Translations under genes and position numbers: made by a program
In this document: positions 2,621 to 27,507 of the stretch, in pieces
Position numbering within the stretch: the stretch's first letter is position 1
Layout: the number at the start of each line of letters is the position of its first letter
Assembly (NCBI GenBank): GCA_003353795.1
Contig: PIVY01000029.1
Coordinates: 1-36,857, forward strand
DNA length: 36,857 nucleotides
Reading direction: 5' to 3'
From: a bacterium
GTDB lineage: Bacteria > Krumholzibacteriota > Krumholzibacteriia > LZORAL124-64-63
Notes under the pieces: model-generated
Databases searched by the model: none
What the model was told of the DNA's origin: nothing
What the model saw: only the letters and a program-made list of their open reading frames with translations

Positions 2621-3469
2621 ATGTACGATCGTATCGACCGCCTCGGCGGCACCGTCTACCAGCACGGTTCGTTCAATGACCGAATCTACGTCATGAAGAC
2701 AACACTGGACGACTGCCTCGAACTGCTGCCGTACCTGGAAAAGCTGGCCGGCAAGCGAGGGTACGGCAAGGTGATCGCCAAGTGTCCGGCAGCGTGCCGC
2801 GACGCGTTCGAGACCTGGGGCGCCGTCTGCGAGGCACGGATCCCGGACTACCACGGCAACGGGCAGGGCGCGCTGTTCATGGCACGCTATTTCGACGAGC
2901 GTCGCGCGATCGAACGCCACCCCGACGACGTGGCGAAGAACCTCGCGATCGCCCGGGCCAAGGCCGACGAGGAACCGTCCCGCCAGGGTGTCGACTGGGA
3001 CCGAGAGGCCACGCCCGCCGATAAGGCCGACGTCAACGAGATGGGCGAAGTCTACCAGCTCGTGTTCCAGACCTACCCGTTCCCCATCCACGACCCGGTG
3101 TACCTGCGCCAGGCCATGCAGGACGATGTGCTGTTCTTCAAGCTCACGTCGGAAGGACGGATCGGCGCCCTGGCCTCCGCCGAGGTGGAGGCGGCCGAGA
3201 GCGCCGTGGAGATGACCGACTTCGCGACCCTGCCCGCCTACCGCGGCCGTGGGGCGGCGCAGTCCCTCCTGTCGGCCATGGAGAACGCCATGTGCGCGCG
3301 CGGCGTCCGCACGGCCTTCACCATCGCCCGGGCCTACAGCGCGGGCATGAACGTCACCTTCGCCAAGCACGGCTACGCGTTCGCCGGCACCCTCACCATG
3401 AACACGAACATCGGCGGCAAGATCGAGAGCATGAACGTCTGGTCGAAGGCGCTGGCTGCCGGCGGATGA
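2621..3469 (+). CDS. ablB: Beta-lysine N-epsilon-acetyltransferase (AblB)
   Basis: Acetylates beta-lysine to N-epsilon-acetyl-beta-lysine, a compatible solute known from methanogens and some bacteria. The protein is 282 aa. The ATG at 2621 is chosen because GGAGG sits about 10 nt upstream (2606-2610) and the preceding symporter stops at 2618. The open frame itself extends far upstream inside the symporter gene, but that part is a shadow. The N-terminal half (RLGGTVYQHG near the start, then a GYGKVIAK segment) matches the AblB-specific region. The C-terminal half is a GNAT fold with the acetyl-CoA loop AYRGRGAAQSLL around residues 206-217. It is the last gene of the operon; a 16-bp gap separates it from the convergent metallophosphoesterase. 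Confidence 0.9.
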   Translation: MYDRIDRLGGTVYQHGSFNDRIYVMKTTLDDCLELLPYLEKLAGKRGYGKVIAKCPAACRDAFETWGAVCEARIPDYHGNGQGALFMARYFDERRAIERHPDDVAKNLAIARAKADEEPSRQGVDWDREATPADKADVNEMGEVYQLVFQTYPFPIHDPVYLRQAMQDDVLFFKLTSEGRIGALASAEVEAAESAVEMTDFATLPAYRGRGAAQSLLSAMENAMCARGVRTAFTIARAYSAGMNVTFAKHGYAFAGTLTMNTNIGGKIESMNVWSKALAAGG

Positions 3470-23497: not shown

Positions 23498-23851
23498 ATG
23501 GCCCGCTTCGCCACCCCGCCCGGCCGTGAGGATTTTCACGAGGAAGTCTGGGATCTGGCCCGCTCCATCCCCGTGGGCCGGGTTTCCACGTACGGGCGCC
23601 TCGCCGCCCTGGCGACCCCGCCCGCCGGCATGGATCCGGCCGCATACCGGGCTTTCGGCGCCCGCTGGGTGGGCGGCGCCATGGCCCATTGCCCCGACGA
23701 TGTGCCCTGGTGGCGGGTGATCAACGCTCAGGGCAAGATCAGCCCCCGGGACACCGCCGGCGAGCAGCGCCGGTTGCTCGAGGGCGAGGGCGTGGAATTC
23801 GACGCCAAGGGTCGCGTGGATCTCGCGATCCACGCCTGGGGCGAAGACTGA
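23498..23851 (+). CDS. Alkyltransferase-like (ATL) DNA-lesion-binding protein
   Basis: 117 aa, the size of ATL proteins. These resemble the DNA-binding domain of O6-alkylguanine-DNA alkyltransferase but lack the acceptor cysteine, and instead flag O6-alkylguanine for nucleotide excision repair. The active-site PCHRV is replaced by PWWRV (about residues 70-74). The start FHEEVWDLARSIPVGRVSTYG and the arginine-finger helix ARWVGGAM are as in the family. Because the cysteine is replaced, direct methyl transfer is not expected. GGAGG lies 4 nt before the ATG. It is a single-gene unit, 89 bp before the next gene on the same strand. Confidence 0.9.
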   Translation: MARFATPPGREDFHEEVWDLARSIPVGRVSTYGRLAALATPPAGMDPAAYRAFGARWVGGAMAHCPDDVPWWRVINAQGKISPRDTAGEQRRLLEGEGVEFDAKGRVDLAIHAWGED

Positions 23852-23940
23852 CCATCAACACACAAGACCGCCGGCTGTAACCTCGCCGCCATTGACGGCA
23901 CCAAGGAGAGTGAAACCTATTCCTCGCCTGGAGGTTCGCC

Positions 23941-25959
23941 GTGATCCGGTCGCTCACACTCCTGCTGGTTACGCTGCTGGTCGCTCCCGTCGCGCACGCC
24001 GACGATCTCCTCGAGGACCGCGGCAATTACTGGCCCCCCTTCTTCGCCGAGATGCAGGACGTCGAGTTGCAGGGCCCGCGAGCCTACGTGTTCGGCGTGG
24101 GCGGTCTGCAGATCCTCGACGTGACCGATCCCGACGCGATCTCGCTGCTCGGCCGGTGGGCGCCGGCCGACGACCGTGCCGACCGCCTCTACCGCGGCGC
24201 CGTATCCGGGTCGTACGCTTACGGCGGCGCCCGGGAGAGCGGTCTCGTGGTGGTGCACCTCGAGCCCGAGTTCGCACCGACGCTGGCCGCGCGCATCGAG
24301 TCGCCGGGTGCGAGCTACGAGGGCTGCACCGTGGATGGCGGCTACCTGTACGCCTGCCGGCACGCCGGCGGCCTGGAGATCTACTCCCTCGCTGATCCGG
24401 CGGCGCCGGCCCTCGTGTCCGCGTACCCGGGGCTGTCCAATGCCTGGGACGTGGTGGTGAGCGGTGGCGTGGCCTACGTGGCCGACGGCGCCGGCGGACT
24501 CTCCATTCTCGACGTGAACGATCCCCTGTCGCCGGCGCTGCTGGCCAGCGCGTCCACTGCTGGGGCTGCAGCGGATGTCGCGCTCAACGGCGATGTCCTG
24601 GTGGTTGCGGCCGGCAGCGCCGGTCTCGAGATCTTCGACGTGAGCGACCCGGCCGATCCCGTGCTGGTGTCCACGTACGACACCTCCGGCCTGGCGGCGA
24701 CCATCGACATCGACGGCGATCTGGTTTTCGTGGCCGACTGGGACGATGTGGAAGTGGTGGACATCGCGACGCCCTCGTTGCCCGTGGCCGCGGGCCGGGA
24801 GAACACGCCGGTGCGGGTCATGGGCCTGGCCGTCGAGGCCGGTCGCGTGTACGTGGCCGACTGGTCGCGTCTGCGGATCTACGATCACGGACCCACCAGC
24901 CGCGGCGACATCGAGCTGCCCTCGTGGTTCGAATTCGGTCCCGTACCGTTCGGCGCGGTCATCGACACGGTGATCACCGTGGGCAACACCGGCGGTGGCA
25001 CGATCACCGTCACCGACATCCAGATCTACGACTCCGATTTCGAACTCACCCCACCTCTGGCCTTCACGGTGCCGCCCGGCGGTGTGGTCGAGGTGCCTCT
25101 GCGCTTCGACAACGCCGACCTCGGCGAGGACATCACCTTCGTCCGCATCGAATCCGACGACACCGACGAGGGCGTCTACACCTTCCCCGTGATCGGTGAG
25201 CCCGATCCCGACGAGCTCGATCTGGGCGATCCGGCGCCGCCCTTCACACTCACCGACCTGGACGGCGTGACCCACGAGCTGGAGCAGTATCGCGGAAGGG
25301 TGGTGGTGCTGGCGTTCTTCGCCAACTGGTGACCGGTTTGCGGTCCGGAGTTTTCGGACCTCGAGACGGCCATCTGGCAACGGTTCCAGGACGACGACGT
25401 GGTGGTGCTGGGCATCAACCCGGGGCCCGATCCGCTGGAGATCATCGAGGTGTTCATCGACGCCTTCCAGATCACCTTCCCCATCCTGCCGGACGATCAC
25501 ACCGTCCATGACCAGTACCGGCAGCCGGGGCCCCAGTCGCCGTTCCCGCTGGACTACGTCATCGACCAGGACGGCAATGTGGCCTACCACGCCACGGAGT
25601 ACCAGCCCGACATCATGGTCGCGGTGATCGAGGATCTGCTGGCCATCGGCACGGCCGTGGGCGAGCTGCCGGCGCCGACCGCGGATCCGCGACTCACCGC
25701 GGCCCCCAATCCCTTCAATCCGCGGACCGTGGTGTCCTTCGAGCTGCAACGGTCGGGCGAGGTGACCCTCGAGGTGCTCGACGCGCGCGGTCGTCGCGTG
25801 CGTCGGTTGCTGGCCGGCACCACGTATCCGTCCGGCCGCCACGAACTCACCTACGATGGACGCGACCAGGCCGGCCGCGATCTGGCCACCGGGGTGTACC
25901 TGCTCCGGCTACGGATCGACGGCGCCGACACGACCCGCAAACTCACGCTGGTGCGTTAG
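23941..25959 (+). CDS. Secreted selenoprotein: LVIVD propeller, Ig-like, UxxC redoxin, FlgD-like tail
   Basis: Read through one in-frame TGA (25330-25332) this is 672 aa; without read-through it stops at 463 aa. GTG start with GGAGG 6 nt upstream, then a signal peptide (cleavage near AHA-DD, residue 21). About 45-310: LVIVD-type beta-propeller repeats (VFGVGGLQILDVTDPD and variants). About 322-415: Ig-like choice-of-anchor domain. About 426-570: AhpC/TSA-type redoxin with NWUPVCGPEF, Sec464 and Cys467 (UxxC). About 585-672: FlgD-like module with NPFNP (590) ending RKLTLVR. Frame, domain and coding character continue across the TGA, and a SECIS-like hairpin follows. A thiol/selenol oxidoreductase outside the cytoplasm is likely. 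A nonsense mutation or sequencing error is the alternative. Confidence 0.82.
25330..25332 (+). other. In-frame TGA read as selenocysteine (Sec464)
   Basis: The codon stands where redoxins have the attacking cysteine of a WCxxC motif: Asn-Trp-TGA-Pro-Val-Cys-Gly-Pro. Sec in place of the first Cys of CxxC is a well-known pattern in selenoproteins. A TGC or TGT codon is one base away, so an error must be excluded. Confidence 0.8.
25342..25360 (+). promoter_or_regulatory. Bacterial SECIS-like stem-loop
   Basis: GGTCCG (25342-25347) and CGGACC (25355-25360) form a perfect 6-bp stem with a 7-nt loop GAGTTTT. The loop starts 16 nt after the TGA and begins with G. This fits what is known of bacterial SECIS elements: a coding-region hairpin shortly downstream of UGA with a G among the first loop bases, bound by SelB. 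Confidence 0.75.
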
Positions 25960-25998
25960 AAGCCGCGACAACGCTCACACGGTCCATAGCGCGGCCGA

Positions 25999-27507
25999 TC
26001 AGCGCACCAGCGTCATCTTCCGCGAATCCTCACCGCCGGCCGCGGTCAGCCGCAGCAGATAGGTTCCCGAGGGAACCGATCGACCGGCGTCGTCGCAGCC
26101 GTGCCAGACCACCGAATGCATTCCCGCGGTGTGGATCCGATCGGCCAGCAAGCGAACGCGCCGGCCGTCCACTCCGAGCACCTCCACGGTCACCCGGCCC
26201 GCCCGCTCCAGGTCGAAGACCACGGTGGTCGCCGGGTTGAATGGGTTGGGGTGATTGCCGCGCAGGCTGACGGCGGTCGGCAGTTCCAGCGGCGCACTCG
26301 TCGGCGTTTCCCAGTAGCGCGGCGCCCGGTGCACCGGTCCTCCGGCGAGGTAGACCCAGACGATAGTGCCGTCCGTCAGCACCTCGAAGATGCGGCCCTC
26401 CTGACCCTCGCAGATGACGGTGTTGCCGTTTGGCATGCGGTAGGCACCGCTCAGGAAGCGGGAGAAAAAGCCCGGCACGTCGCCGTAGCGCCAGGTGGCG
26501 GCGACGGGGCCATAGGGCTCGCCGGGCTCGATGAGGAATTCGCCGCCCGGTCCTCGCGGCGGCGTGATCTGCTCGACGCTCGACAGCTCCGGATCGGCCC
26601 CGTTCCCGTTGTTGAACAGCATGATGTCGCCGGCGCCCGGCAGCCCCGGATCGATCCAGATCGCGCCGTGGGTGCCGAAGGACACCTGATCCGCCGCCGC
26701 GCCGCGATGATAGACCTGCGGATTTCCCCAGCGATAGAGGAGGTCGCCGCCGCGGCCCCGGCTGCCGCCGGTGTGACCGGCGGCTTCCTCGGTGGTGGTG
26801 GAGTGGTCGAGGACGTAGACCTCGCTGGTGTTGCGGGCGGAGAACACGATCTGGTCGTGCTCCTCGTCGTAGTCGATGGCGTTGGCGTGCAGCCAGTTGC
26901 CGGTGGCCACGTCGCCCCAGTTGATGTCCAGCAATTCGGGATGGTCGGCCACCACGCCGTAGTTGTCCTTGGTGGGGTCGGCGTCCTGGACCAGGTGGTC
27001 CCAGGCCCGCCACTCCCAGACGACGTTGCCGCCGTCGAAGCCCACGGGCTCGACCTCGGCGAGGTAGGTGGACTGGACTGAGTCGTCGACGATCTGCCGG
27101 CCAGCCTGGATGGCCTCCTCCAGCGTACGCCGCTCCCAGGCCACGATGAGCACGTTGCCGCCCGGCATGGGCTGGATGTCATGGTGTTGCAGGAAATTCG
27201 GGTCGGAGAAATAGTAGTCCCAGATCACGTTGTCGTTCACGTCGATGCGCTGGATACGGCCGCCGCGACCGTTGCCTTCGGGGTCGCGACAGGGCCTGAG
27301 CACCGAGCTGTCGGGCAGCATGTAGGCGAATTCGGTGGGCACCTCGGCGCCGTGCCAGGTCTTGACCGGATTGCCGTCCATGTCGATGAGGAAGCTTTCG
27401 GTACTGGTGCGCAGGGAGATGATGGTGAGGCCGGGATAGGGGTCCTGGGCGAGGGCCGGGCTGGCGAGGACCGCCAGCAGGCAGGCGCAGCAGATCAGCG
27501 ATCTCAC
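25999..27507 (-). CDS. Arylsulfotransferase (ASST)-like secreted protein with FlgD-like tail
   Basis: 502 aa from a GTG start (27505-27507) with AAGGAG just upstream. Signal peptide to about residue 20 (SPALA-QD). The body (about 25-400) is a propeller of the arylsulfotransferase/ASST-like class: GLTIISLRTSTESFLIDMDG at the start, LQHHDIQPMPGGNVLIV, WLHANAIDYDEEHDQIVFSAR, SGAYRMPNGNTVICEGQEGR. A FlgD-like module follows (NPFNP at 26233-26247) ending RKMTLVR. Whether it transfers sulfate or is only a structural relative is not clear. It is the second gene of a minus-strand pair (22 bp after its neighbour) and convergent with the selenoprotein gene. Confidence 0.83.
   Translation of the reverse strand: MRSLICCACLLAVLASPALAQDPYPGLTIISLRTSTESFLIDMDGNPVKTWHGAEVPTEFAYMLPDSSVLRPCRDPEGNGRGGRIQRIDVNDNVIWDYYFSDPNFLQHHDIQPMPGGNVLIVAWERRTLEEAIQAGRQIVDDSVQSTYLAEVEPVGFDGGNVVWEWRAWDHLVQDADPTKDNYGVVADHPELLDINWGDVATGNWLHANAIDYDEEHDQIVFSARNTSEVYVLDHSTTTEEAAGHTGGSRGRGGDLLYRWGNPQVYHRGAAADQVSFGTHGAIWIDPGLPGAGDIMLFNNGNGADPELSSVEQITPPRGPGGEFLIEPGEPYGPVAATWRYGDVPGFFSRFLSGAYRMPNGNTVICEGQEGRIFEVLTDGTIVWVYLAGGPVHRAPRYWETPTSAPLELPTAVSLRGNHPNPFNPATTVVFDLERAGRVTVEVLGVDGRRVRLLADRIHTAGMHSVVWHGCDDAGRSVPSGTYLLRLTAAGGEDSRKMTLVR

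Follow-up and report, generated by a model that had tools for sequence, protein, structure and literature searches.

Introduction

A 2026 review of prokaryotic selenoproteins (PMC13188914) lists 119 families and subfamilies, and its catalogue already holds redoxins that come close to the protein described here. Table 1 of that review names a Redoxin family selenoprotein (PF08534, representative HEU0032618.1), likewise a redoxin with selenocysteine (Sec) as the first residue of a UxxC motif, and a Prx-like thiol:disulfide oxidoreductase of the UxxC type (PF00578), which has the same Pfam family and motif type as our protein. For each, that table gives a single domain identifier, whereas the protein considered below is multidomain, which sets it apart from the former as described, and probably exported, which with its several domains sets it apart from the latter. 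The catalogue also includes a TlpA-like UGC protein, as well as a TonB-dependent receptor of the FCYXU type and an MtrB/PioB-type outer membrane barrel, two Sec proteins whose names imply the cell envelope, so a selenoprotein in the envelope is not in itself a novelty; these two have other folds, and the accessible part of the review mentions no sorting tail for them.

Among proteins of known structure, the ResA/TlpA oxidoreductases (3c71, 1st9 and 2f9s; best match 2ls5) match most of the redoxin domain in sequence, but they carry Cys where the protein has its predicted Sec, and their chains of 136–190 residues comprise the domain alone. The protein scores 69.7 bits against the NCBIfam ResA model NF002854, below the cut-off of 170, and is therefore called ResA-like rather than ResA. 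NF041054, the ResA-like WAxxUGC motif protein, resembles it in joining a ResA-like domain with Sec, but the match scores 17.3 bits where the cut-off is 300, and Sec there lies in a UGC motif instead of UPVC.

By word search, Krumholz, LVIVD, PF08309, PF13860, TIGR04183, FlgD, type IX and sorting are absent from the accessible text of PMC13188914, as are Krumholz and LVIVD from that of a 2022 review (PMC9312934). Within the open-licence literature as far as it was accessible, nothing was found that joins Krumholzibacteriota with selenoproteins or selenoproteins with LVIVD, and selenoprotein and type IX secretion co-occur solely in work on rabbit diets.

Here we describe a gene in a 36,857-nucleotide stretch of DNA (the window, analysed in full) from a member of the Krumholzibacteriota, which a sequence-only reading had proposed to encode a probable new selenoprotein. 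What appears to be novel is the architecture, in which a signal-peptide-like N-terminus, an LVIVD propeller, a Sec redoxin domain and a type IX-like sorting tail are combined. Since the LVIVD, sorting and type IX terms are absent from the accessible text of PMC13188914, this architecture and the probable export route are rated as probably new, while the UxxC redoxin selenoprotein itself is already known and to that extent the claim of novelty does not stand.

Gene Structure and Domain Architecture

The frame from 23941 to 25956 on the plus strand contains a single stop, the TGA at 25330–25332, so the proposal of two same-phase open frames parted by that codon alone is borne out. Translation across it reads ...AFFANW-U-PVCGPEFSDL..., giving the motif W-U-P-V-C with U464 and C467; the codon thus occupies the first-Cys position of a WCxxC motif whose second Cys is kept, as had been claimed and as the homologue alignment also has it. 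Across both strands of the 36.9-kb window, no other TGA is flanked on both sides by 60 or more open codons with coding-type GC (GC3 > GC1 > GC2, with GC3 above 0.75). TGA otherwise serves here as an ordinary stop: in the window, 15 ORF ends were checked, including that of the gene itself, and they comprise 8 TGA, 6 TAG and 1 TAA. The expectation that naive annotation would split the gene is likewise correct, the mechanical ORF list giving 23941–25332 and 25399–25959 as separate entries.

Features of the predicted selenoprotein gene, with positions in the window
Feature	Coordinates	Strand	Basis
Probable ribosome-binding site GGAGG, 6 nt upstream of GTG start	23930..23934	+	Sequence
Predicted selenoprotein gene, 672 residues with TGA 25330 as Sec, stop TAG 25957-25959	23941..25959	+	Sequence; long homologues with exactly one TGA
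Signal-peptide-like N-terminus (IRSLTLLLVTLLVAPVAHA)	23941..24003	+	Judged by eye, inference
Best LVIVD repeat, residues 167-204	24439..24552	+	Pfam PF08309
AhpC-TSA/Redoxin (ResA/TlpA-like) domain, residues 429-549	25225..25587	+	PF00578, PF08534, ResA structures
TGA, predicted Sec-464 codon, first-Cys position of WCxxC	25330..25332	+	Homologues and ResA structures
Cys-467 codon	25339-25341	+	
Candidate bSECIS hairpin GGTCCG-GAGTTTT-CGGACC	25342..25360	+	Folding, conservation, phylum control
C-terminal tail, residues 588-668, T9SS type A sorting domain-like / FlgD Ig-like	25702..25944	+	TIGR04183, PF13860

A Pfam search of the protein finds LVIVD repeats at 102.7 bits (PF08309) and a redoxin domain that spans the TGA (PF00578, 79.4 bits with a cut-off of 26; PF08534, 53.9 bits with a cut-off of 26.6); with profile scores over cut-off and the active-site motif, the protein belongs to the AhpC-TSA/Redoxin thioredoxin-fold family. 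The tail matches both the FlgD Ig-like family (PF13860, 36.1 bits, cut-off 27) and the NCBIfam model of the T9SS type A sorting domain (TIGR04183, 26 bits, cut-off 23). An AlphaFold2 model built from three sequences (mean pLDDT 65.9) has propeller-like strands over roughly residues 24–316; because its pLDDT falls below 50 at residues 460–476, it was left aside for the active site.

Convergent with this gene lies an arylsulfotransferase-like gene with an FlgD Ig-like tail of its own (26002–27507, minus strand). It is not found beside the ortholog in genome G006, the one ortholog compared, where a DEAD-box helicase-like frame (named by eye) stands instead.

Homologues and Selection

With the redoxin domain as query, a search of 80 genomes of Krumholzibacteriota (E <= 1e-20) returned 23 matches from 14 genomes, and these fall into two sets. 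Eighteen of them, from 11 genomes and with 46–99% identity, have one TGA, at codon 464; the window gene is among them, as is a second copy from the same genome (contig C508). The other five, at 33–36% identity, have no TGA and show WCxxC, with Cys at the Sec position. The homologues therefore have Sec or Cys at position 464, in 18 and 5 of the 23 respectively, as the sequence-only reading had suggested checking. In the TGA set, U is preceded by W in 15 genes and by L in the other three (L082–L084). When the full protein was searched against the order's 38 genomes, every match of more than 500 residues, 16 in all with the window gene included, contained exactly one TGA and no other stop. A 17th copy (G031:C20:11396-12719) is split between frames into three pieces, by a frameshift or an assembly error.

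The in-frame TGA aligns with a conserved redox Cys both in the ResA structures, where residue 464 (entered as C) falls on the Cys of WCGVC and of WCPHC in two structure alignments, and in the five weaker phylum matches. For the redoxin part after the TGA, dN/dS is 0.15 against the G006 ortholog, 0.18 against that of G031 and 0.48 against the paralogue in the same genome; over the 36 codons before the TGA, the corresponding values are 0.15, 0.29 and 0.79. The low values downstream of the TGA indicate that this part is under purifying selection at the protein level.

Several other TGA redoxins came to light. In genome G041, from another family of the phylum, one contig carries three W-TGA-PxC redoxin frames (L074, at 418, 1542 and 2092), each followed by an RNAfold hairpin, the second and third stems differing in sequence. 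Two MAGs from a wider search have W-TGA-P-I-C redoxins (L089, TGA at 3109–3111, and L090), and after the TGA of L089 a 6-bp hairpin CGCTGC-AGGCT-GCAGCG is possible by eye. In the window's own genome, L182 (G000:C204:8319-9964) holds two adjoining small TGA redoxins, with GYAUGTC and GYSUGSC, which match the window protein through redoxin domain and tail; a simple hairpin test fails for both.

The Hairpin Downstream of the TGA

The perfect 6-bp stem that had been noted after the TGA is present, with GGTCCG at 25342–25347 pairing with CGGACC at 25355–25360 around the loop GAGTTTT (25348–25354). RNAfold extends this to a form with 8 pairs and the loop GTT (25350–25352), which starts 18 nt after the TGA. 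Published constraints for bacterial SECIS (bSECIS) elements, as given in the accessible part of PMC13188914, call for a loop of 3–9 nt, a stem of 4–16 bp, a spacing of 16–37 nt, a G in the first two loop positions and an MFE of -7.5 or lower. The RNAfold form satisfies them all, with 17 nt from TGA to loop and an MFE of -11.9 (25330–25362), whereas the 6-bp form has 15 nt between TGA and loop, one short of the published 16; the SECIS-like character proposed earlier thus holds for the longer form and falls one nucleotide short for the simple stem. No Rfam family reaches its gathering score in the window, and no promoter or terminator match occurs in 23800–26100.

Fold energy alone is moderately unusual for this hairpin (z from -1.5 to -3.1 over four stretches), and it is conservation rather than folding energy that places it beyond chance. 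Directly after Cys-467, all 18 TGA genes have the codons GGT CCG GAG, then TTT, TTC or TTG, then TCG GAC, so that five of these six are identical throughout, in contrast to the free variation of conserved codons elsewhere. The six hairpin columns have a synonymous diversity of 0.053, compared with 0.473 for 47 further conserved columns; a value as low as theirs came up in one of 20,000 random sets of columns (permutation p about 1e-4). By this measure, the protein sequence alone would not demand these frozen codons. Variation in the stem is confined to one of its six pairs, which is open in 4 of the 18 genes; there is accordingly no covariation within this family, a consequence of its near invariance. 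Taken at the level of sequence, the hairpin is a credible bacterial SECIS element.

A control at the scale of the phylum compared 81 redoxin genes whose active site has TGA with 55 that have Cys there. Its source was the best 150 PF00578 rows of a longer list, among which 61 have one TGA; all 61 were examined, and in 60 the TGA lies at the active site. To these 60 were added 18 close matches and three genes from the window's own genome (L062 and the two in L182). The Cys set comprises 45 of the 89 listed rows without TGA, nine others from the own genome and the homologue searches, and L123, whose TGA lies outside the active site; left out were L058, which has Ile at the column, L113, and loci repeating a gene already included. 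Stems of 6 bp or longer whose loop begins 14–25 nt past the codon occur in 59/81 TGA genes and 7/55 Cys genes (p 2e-12), counts that are anchored at the first Cys; when eleven WCxxC controls are anchored at the second Cys, the latter figure becomes 4/55. Asking for 5 bp or more together with a G in the first two loop positions gives 67/81 and 9/55, respectively (p 8e-15). The p-values here are a guide to strength and not exact figures, since the genes share ancestry. Eleven of the 14 TGA genes failing the second test form one peroxiredoxin group (IEIPGL or MEIPGL after U), in which RNAfold gives a bulged hairpin instead.

Compensatory change, which the nearly invariant family of the window does not offer, is seen in a sister group of 33 AhpC-like Sec genes. 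There, the pair +15/+24 occurs as G-C, A-T, T-A or C-G and is paired in 33/33 genes against 17.3 in shuffles; +13/+26 occurs as T-A or G-C and is paired in 33/33 against 16.5; and +12/+27 is paired in 26/33 against 16.5. No variation occurs in the two inner pairs, and the two outermost of those tested lend no support. Among 20 distinct Cys relatives, no stem pair exceeds the shuffles.

Folding energy by itself was also tried as a SECIS test and set aside as too weak for single genes. It beats synonymous shuffles (p<0.05) in 18/81 TGA stretches and 5/55 Cys stretches, although the two groups do differ (Mann-Whitney p 3e-7, with the eleven WCxxC controls anchored at the second Cys and a codon pool that contains the tested genes). 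In the window's own family it does so in 3 of the 18 genes, the window among them, and 3 of the 18 fold worse than the shuffle mean.

Two loci deserve mention on their own account. At L059 and L085 (G000:C508 and G006:C92), a Cys redoxin with WCPGC adjoins a Sec paralogue and has, at the SECIS position, a 6-bp hairpin whose loop starts with GG, perhaps the relic of a former Sec codon. At L123 (G051:C1:3414872-3415252), a peroxiredoxin has TGA where its relatives have Trp (GKW) and not at the catalytic Cys, perhaps through a sequencing error.

Selenocysteine Machinery

The assembly that contains the window (G000) is a MAG of 5.7 Mb in 953 contigs, 86% complete and with 4.3% contamination. The genes that the sequence-only reading had named for a search were all four found, each over its cut-off and on contigs other than the window's: tRNA-Sec (70.6 bits, anticodon tca), selB (331 bits), selA (451.5 bits) and selD (352.4 bits). 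The selD gene (L018, G000:C77:2981-3901, minus strand) itself has one in-frame TGA (AKSAGUAAKL); this lies at the Sec/Cys position, so SelD of this genome is probably a selenoprotein too. A Sec form of SelD (UxxK) is known, appearing in Table 1 of PMC13188914.

In the same genome, one TGA is found in 6 of 14 PF00578 matches. Across the phylum, selA was found in 78 of 80 genomes, 77 of them over the cut-off; G012 and G035 gave no selA match although both have TGA redoxin matches, which is likely due to incomplete MAGs.

Alternative Readings of the TGA

With the conserved TGA (18 genes in 11 assemblies), the conserved hairpin and the full Sec machinery all in its support, the proposal of a probable selenoprotein stands, and on this comparative evidence we regard the TGA at 25330 as very probably a Sec codon. 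It could be argued that the gene is a pseudogene, or that a TGC or TGT codon for Cys was misread or had mutated to TGA, and there are grounds for asking: the MAG is fragmented into 953 contigs, the TGA at a Trp position in L123 may be just such an error, and the G031:C20 homologue is split between frames. Against this stands the identical TGA in 18 genes of 11 assemblies, which by itself makes a read error very unlikely, together with the purifying selection on the redoxin part downstream and the frozen hairpin codons, so that an origin in error or decay seems extremely improbable.

Nor does insertion of another amino acid without selenium (Trp, Cys or Arg, by a reassigned code or near-cognate readthrough) account well for the locus. 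The open frame itself would fit it, and nothing further was found in its favour; TGA terminates 8 of the 15 window ORFs checked, the Sec machinery is complete, and TGA falls on a catalytic Cys position with hairpins after it, which together leave this explanation with very little probability. A different matter is whether the TGA acts as a switch, with Sec read-through when selenium is plentiful and termination into a functional, redoxin-less short form when it is scarce. Such a switch would be compatible with Sec decoding and does not exclude it, and the whole LVIVD match does precede the TGA; but termination there would also remove the C-terminal sorting tail, and nothing found points to regulation, so we consider a switch highly improbable as well.

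Predicted Function and Export

If the TGA is indeed a Sec codon, SelB with Sec-tRNA would read it under the control of the bSECIS hairpin at 25342–25360 to yield a single protein of 672 residues. Sec-464 and Cys-467, placed by alignment, would form a U-x-x-C redox centre in the ResA/TlpA-like redoxin domain. The putative signal peptide would take the protein across the inner membrane, and the sorting-like tail may then direct its exit by type IX secretion. Once out of the cytoplasm, the protein would work as a thiol-disulfide or peroxide reductase, an enzymatic role that we predict as likely: the selenolate would attack a substrate and form a selenenyl-sulfide with Cys-467, which some thiol donor would reset, while docking of substrate or partner is probably the task of the LVIVD propeller.

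The signal-like N-terminus and sorting tail, with SprA encoded in the genome, suggest that the window protein is probably an exported selenoenzyme. SprA, of the type IX translocon, exceeds its cut-off in this genome (L203, L204, G000:C314; 516.6 bits with neighbours), and the model matches in none of 14 control genomes. A PorU-like match reaches 411.5 bits, close to its cut-off of 420; the PorU model also matches 2 of the 14 control genomes, below cut-off, and 43 of its 52 matches in the window's own genome cover the C-terminal tail part alone. From SprA, the near-cut-off PorU and these 43 tail-part matches we infer passage by the type IX system. The tail of the ortholog L087, however, scores 21.8 bits with TIGR04183, under the cut-off of 23 that the window protein exceeds, so the type IX step is kept as a hypothesis, one that we hold tentatively and at a little less than even chances. 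With similar reserve, we can envision a T9SS-exported selenoenzyme held at the outer surface, its propeller serving as the docking part, for extracellular selenium redox chemistry.

Implications

The frozen synonymous codons of one family and the compensatory pairs of another make a data set for refining bSECIS models. Because a plain ORF caller cuts such a gene at its TGA, annotated proteomes may miss Sec active sites of this kind. With this protein, the bacterial selenoproteome gains a multidomain architecture that is probably exported. In Krumholzibacteriota, Sec use looks nearly universal and many redoxins use Sec; if the proposed export is true, this would be extracellular selenium redox chemistry in a phylum with extensive use of Sec among its redoxins.
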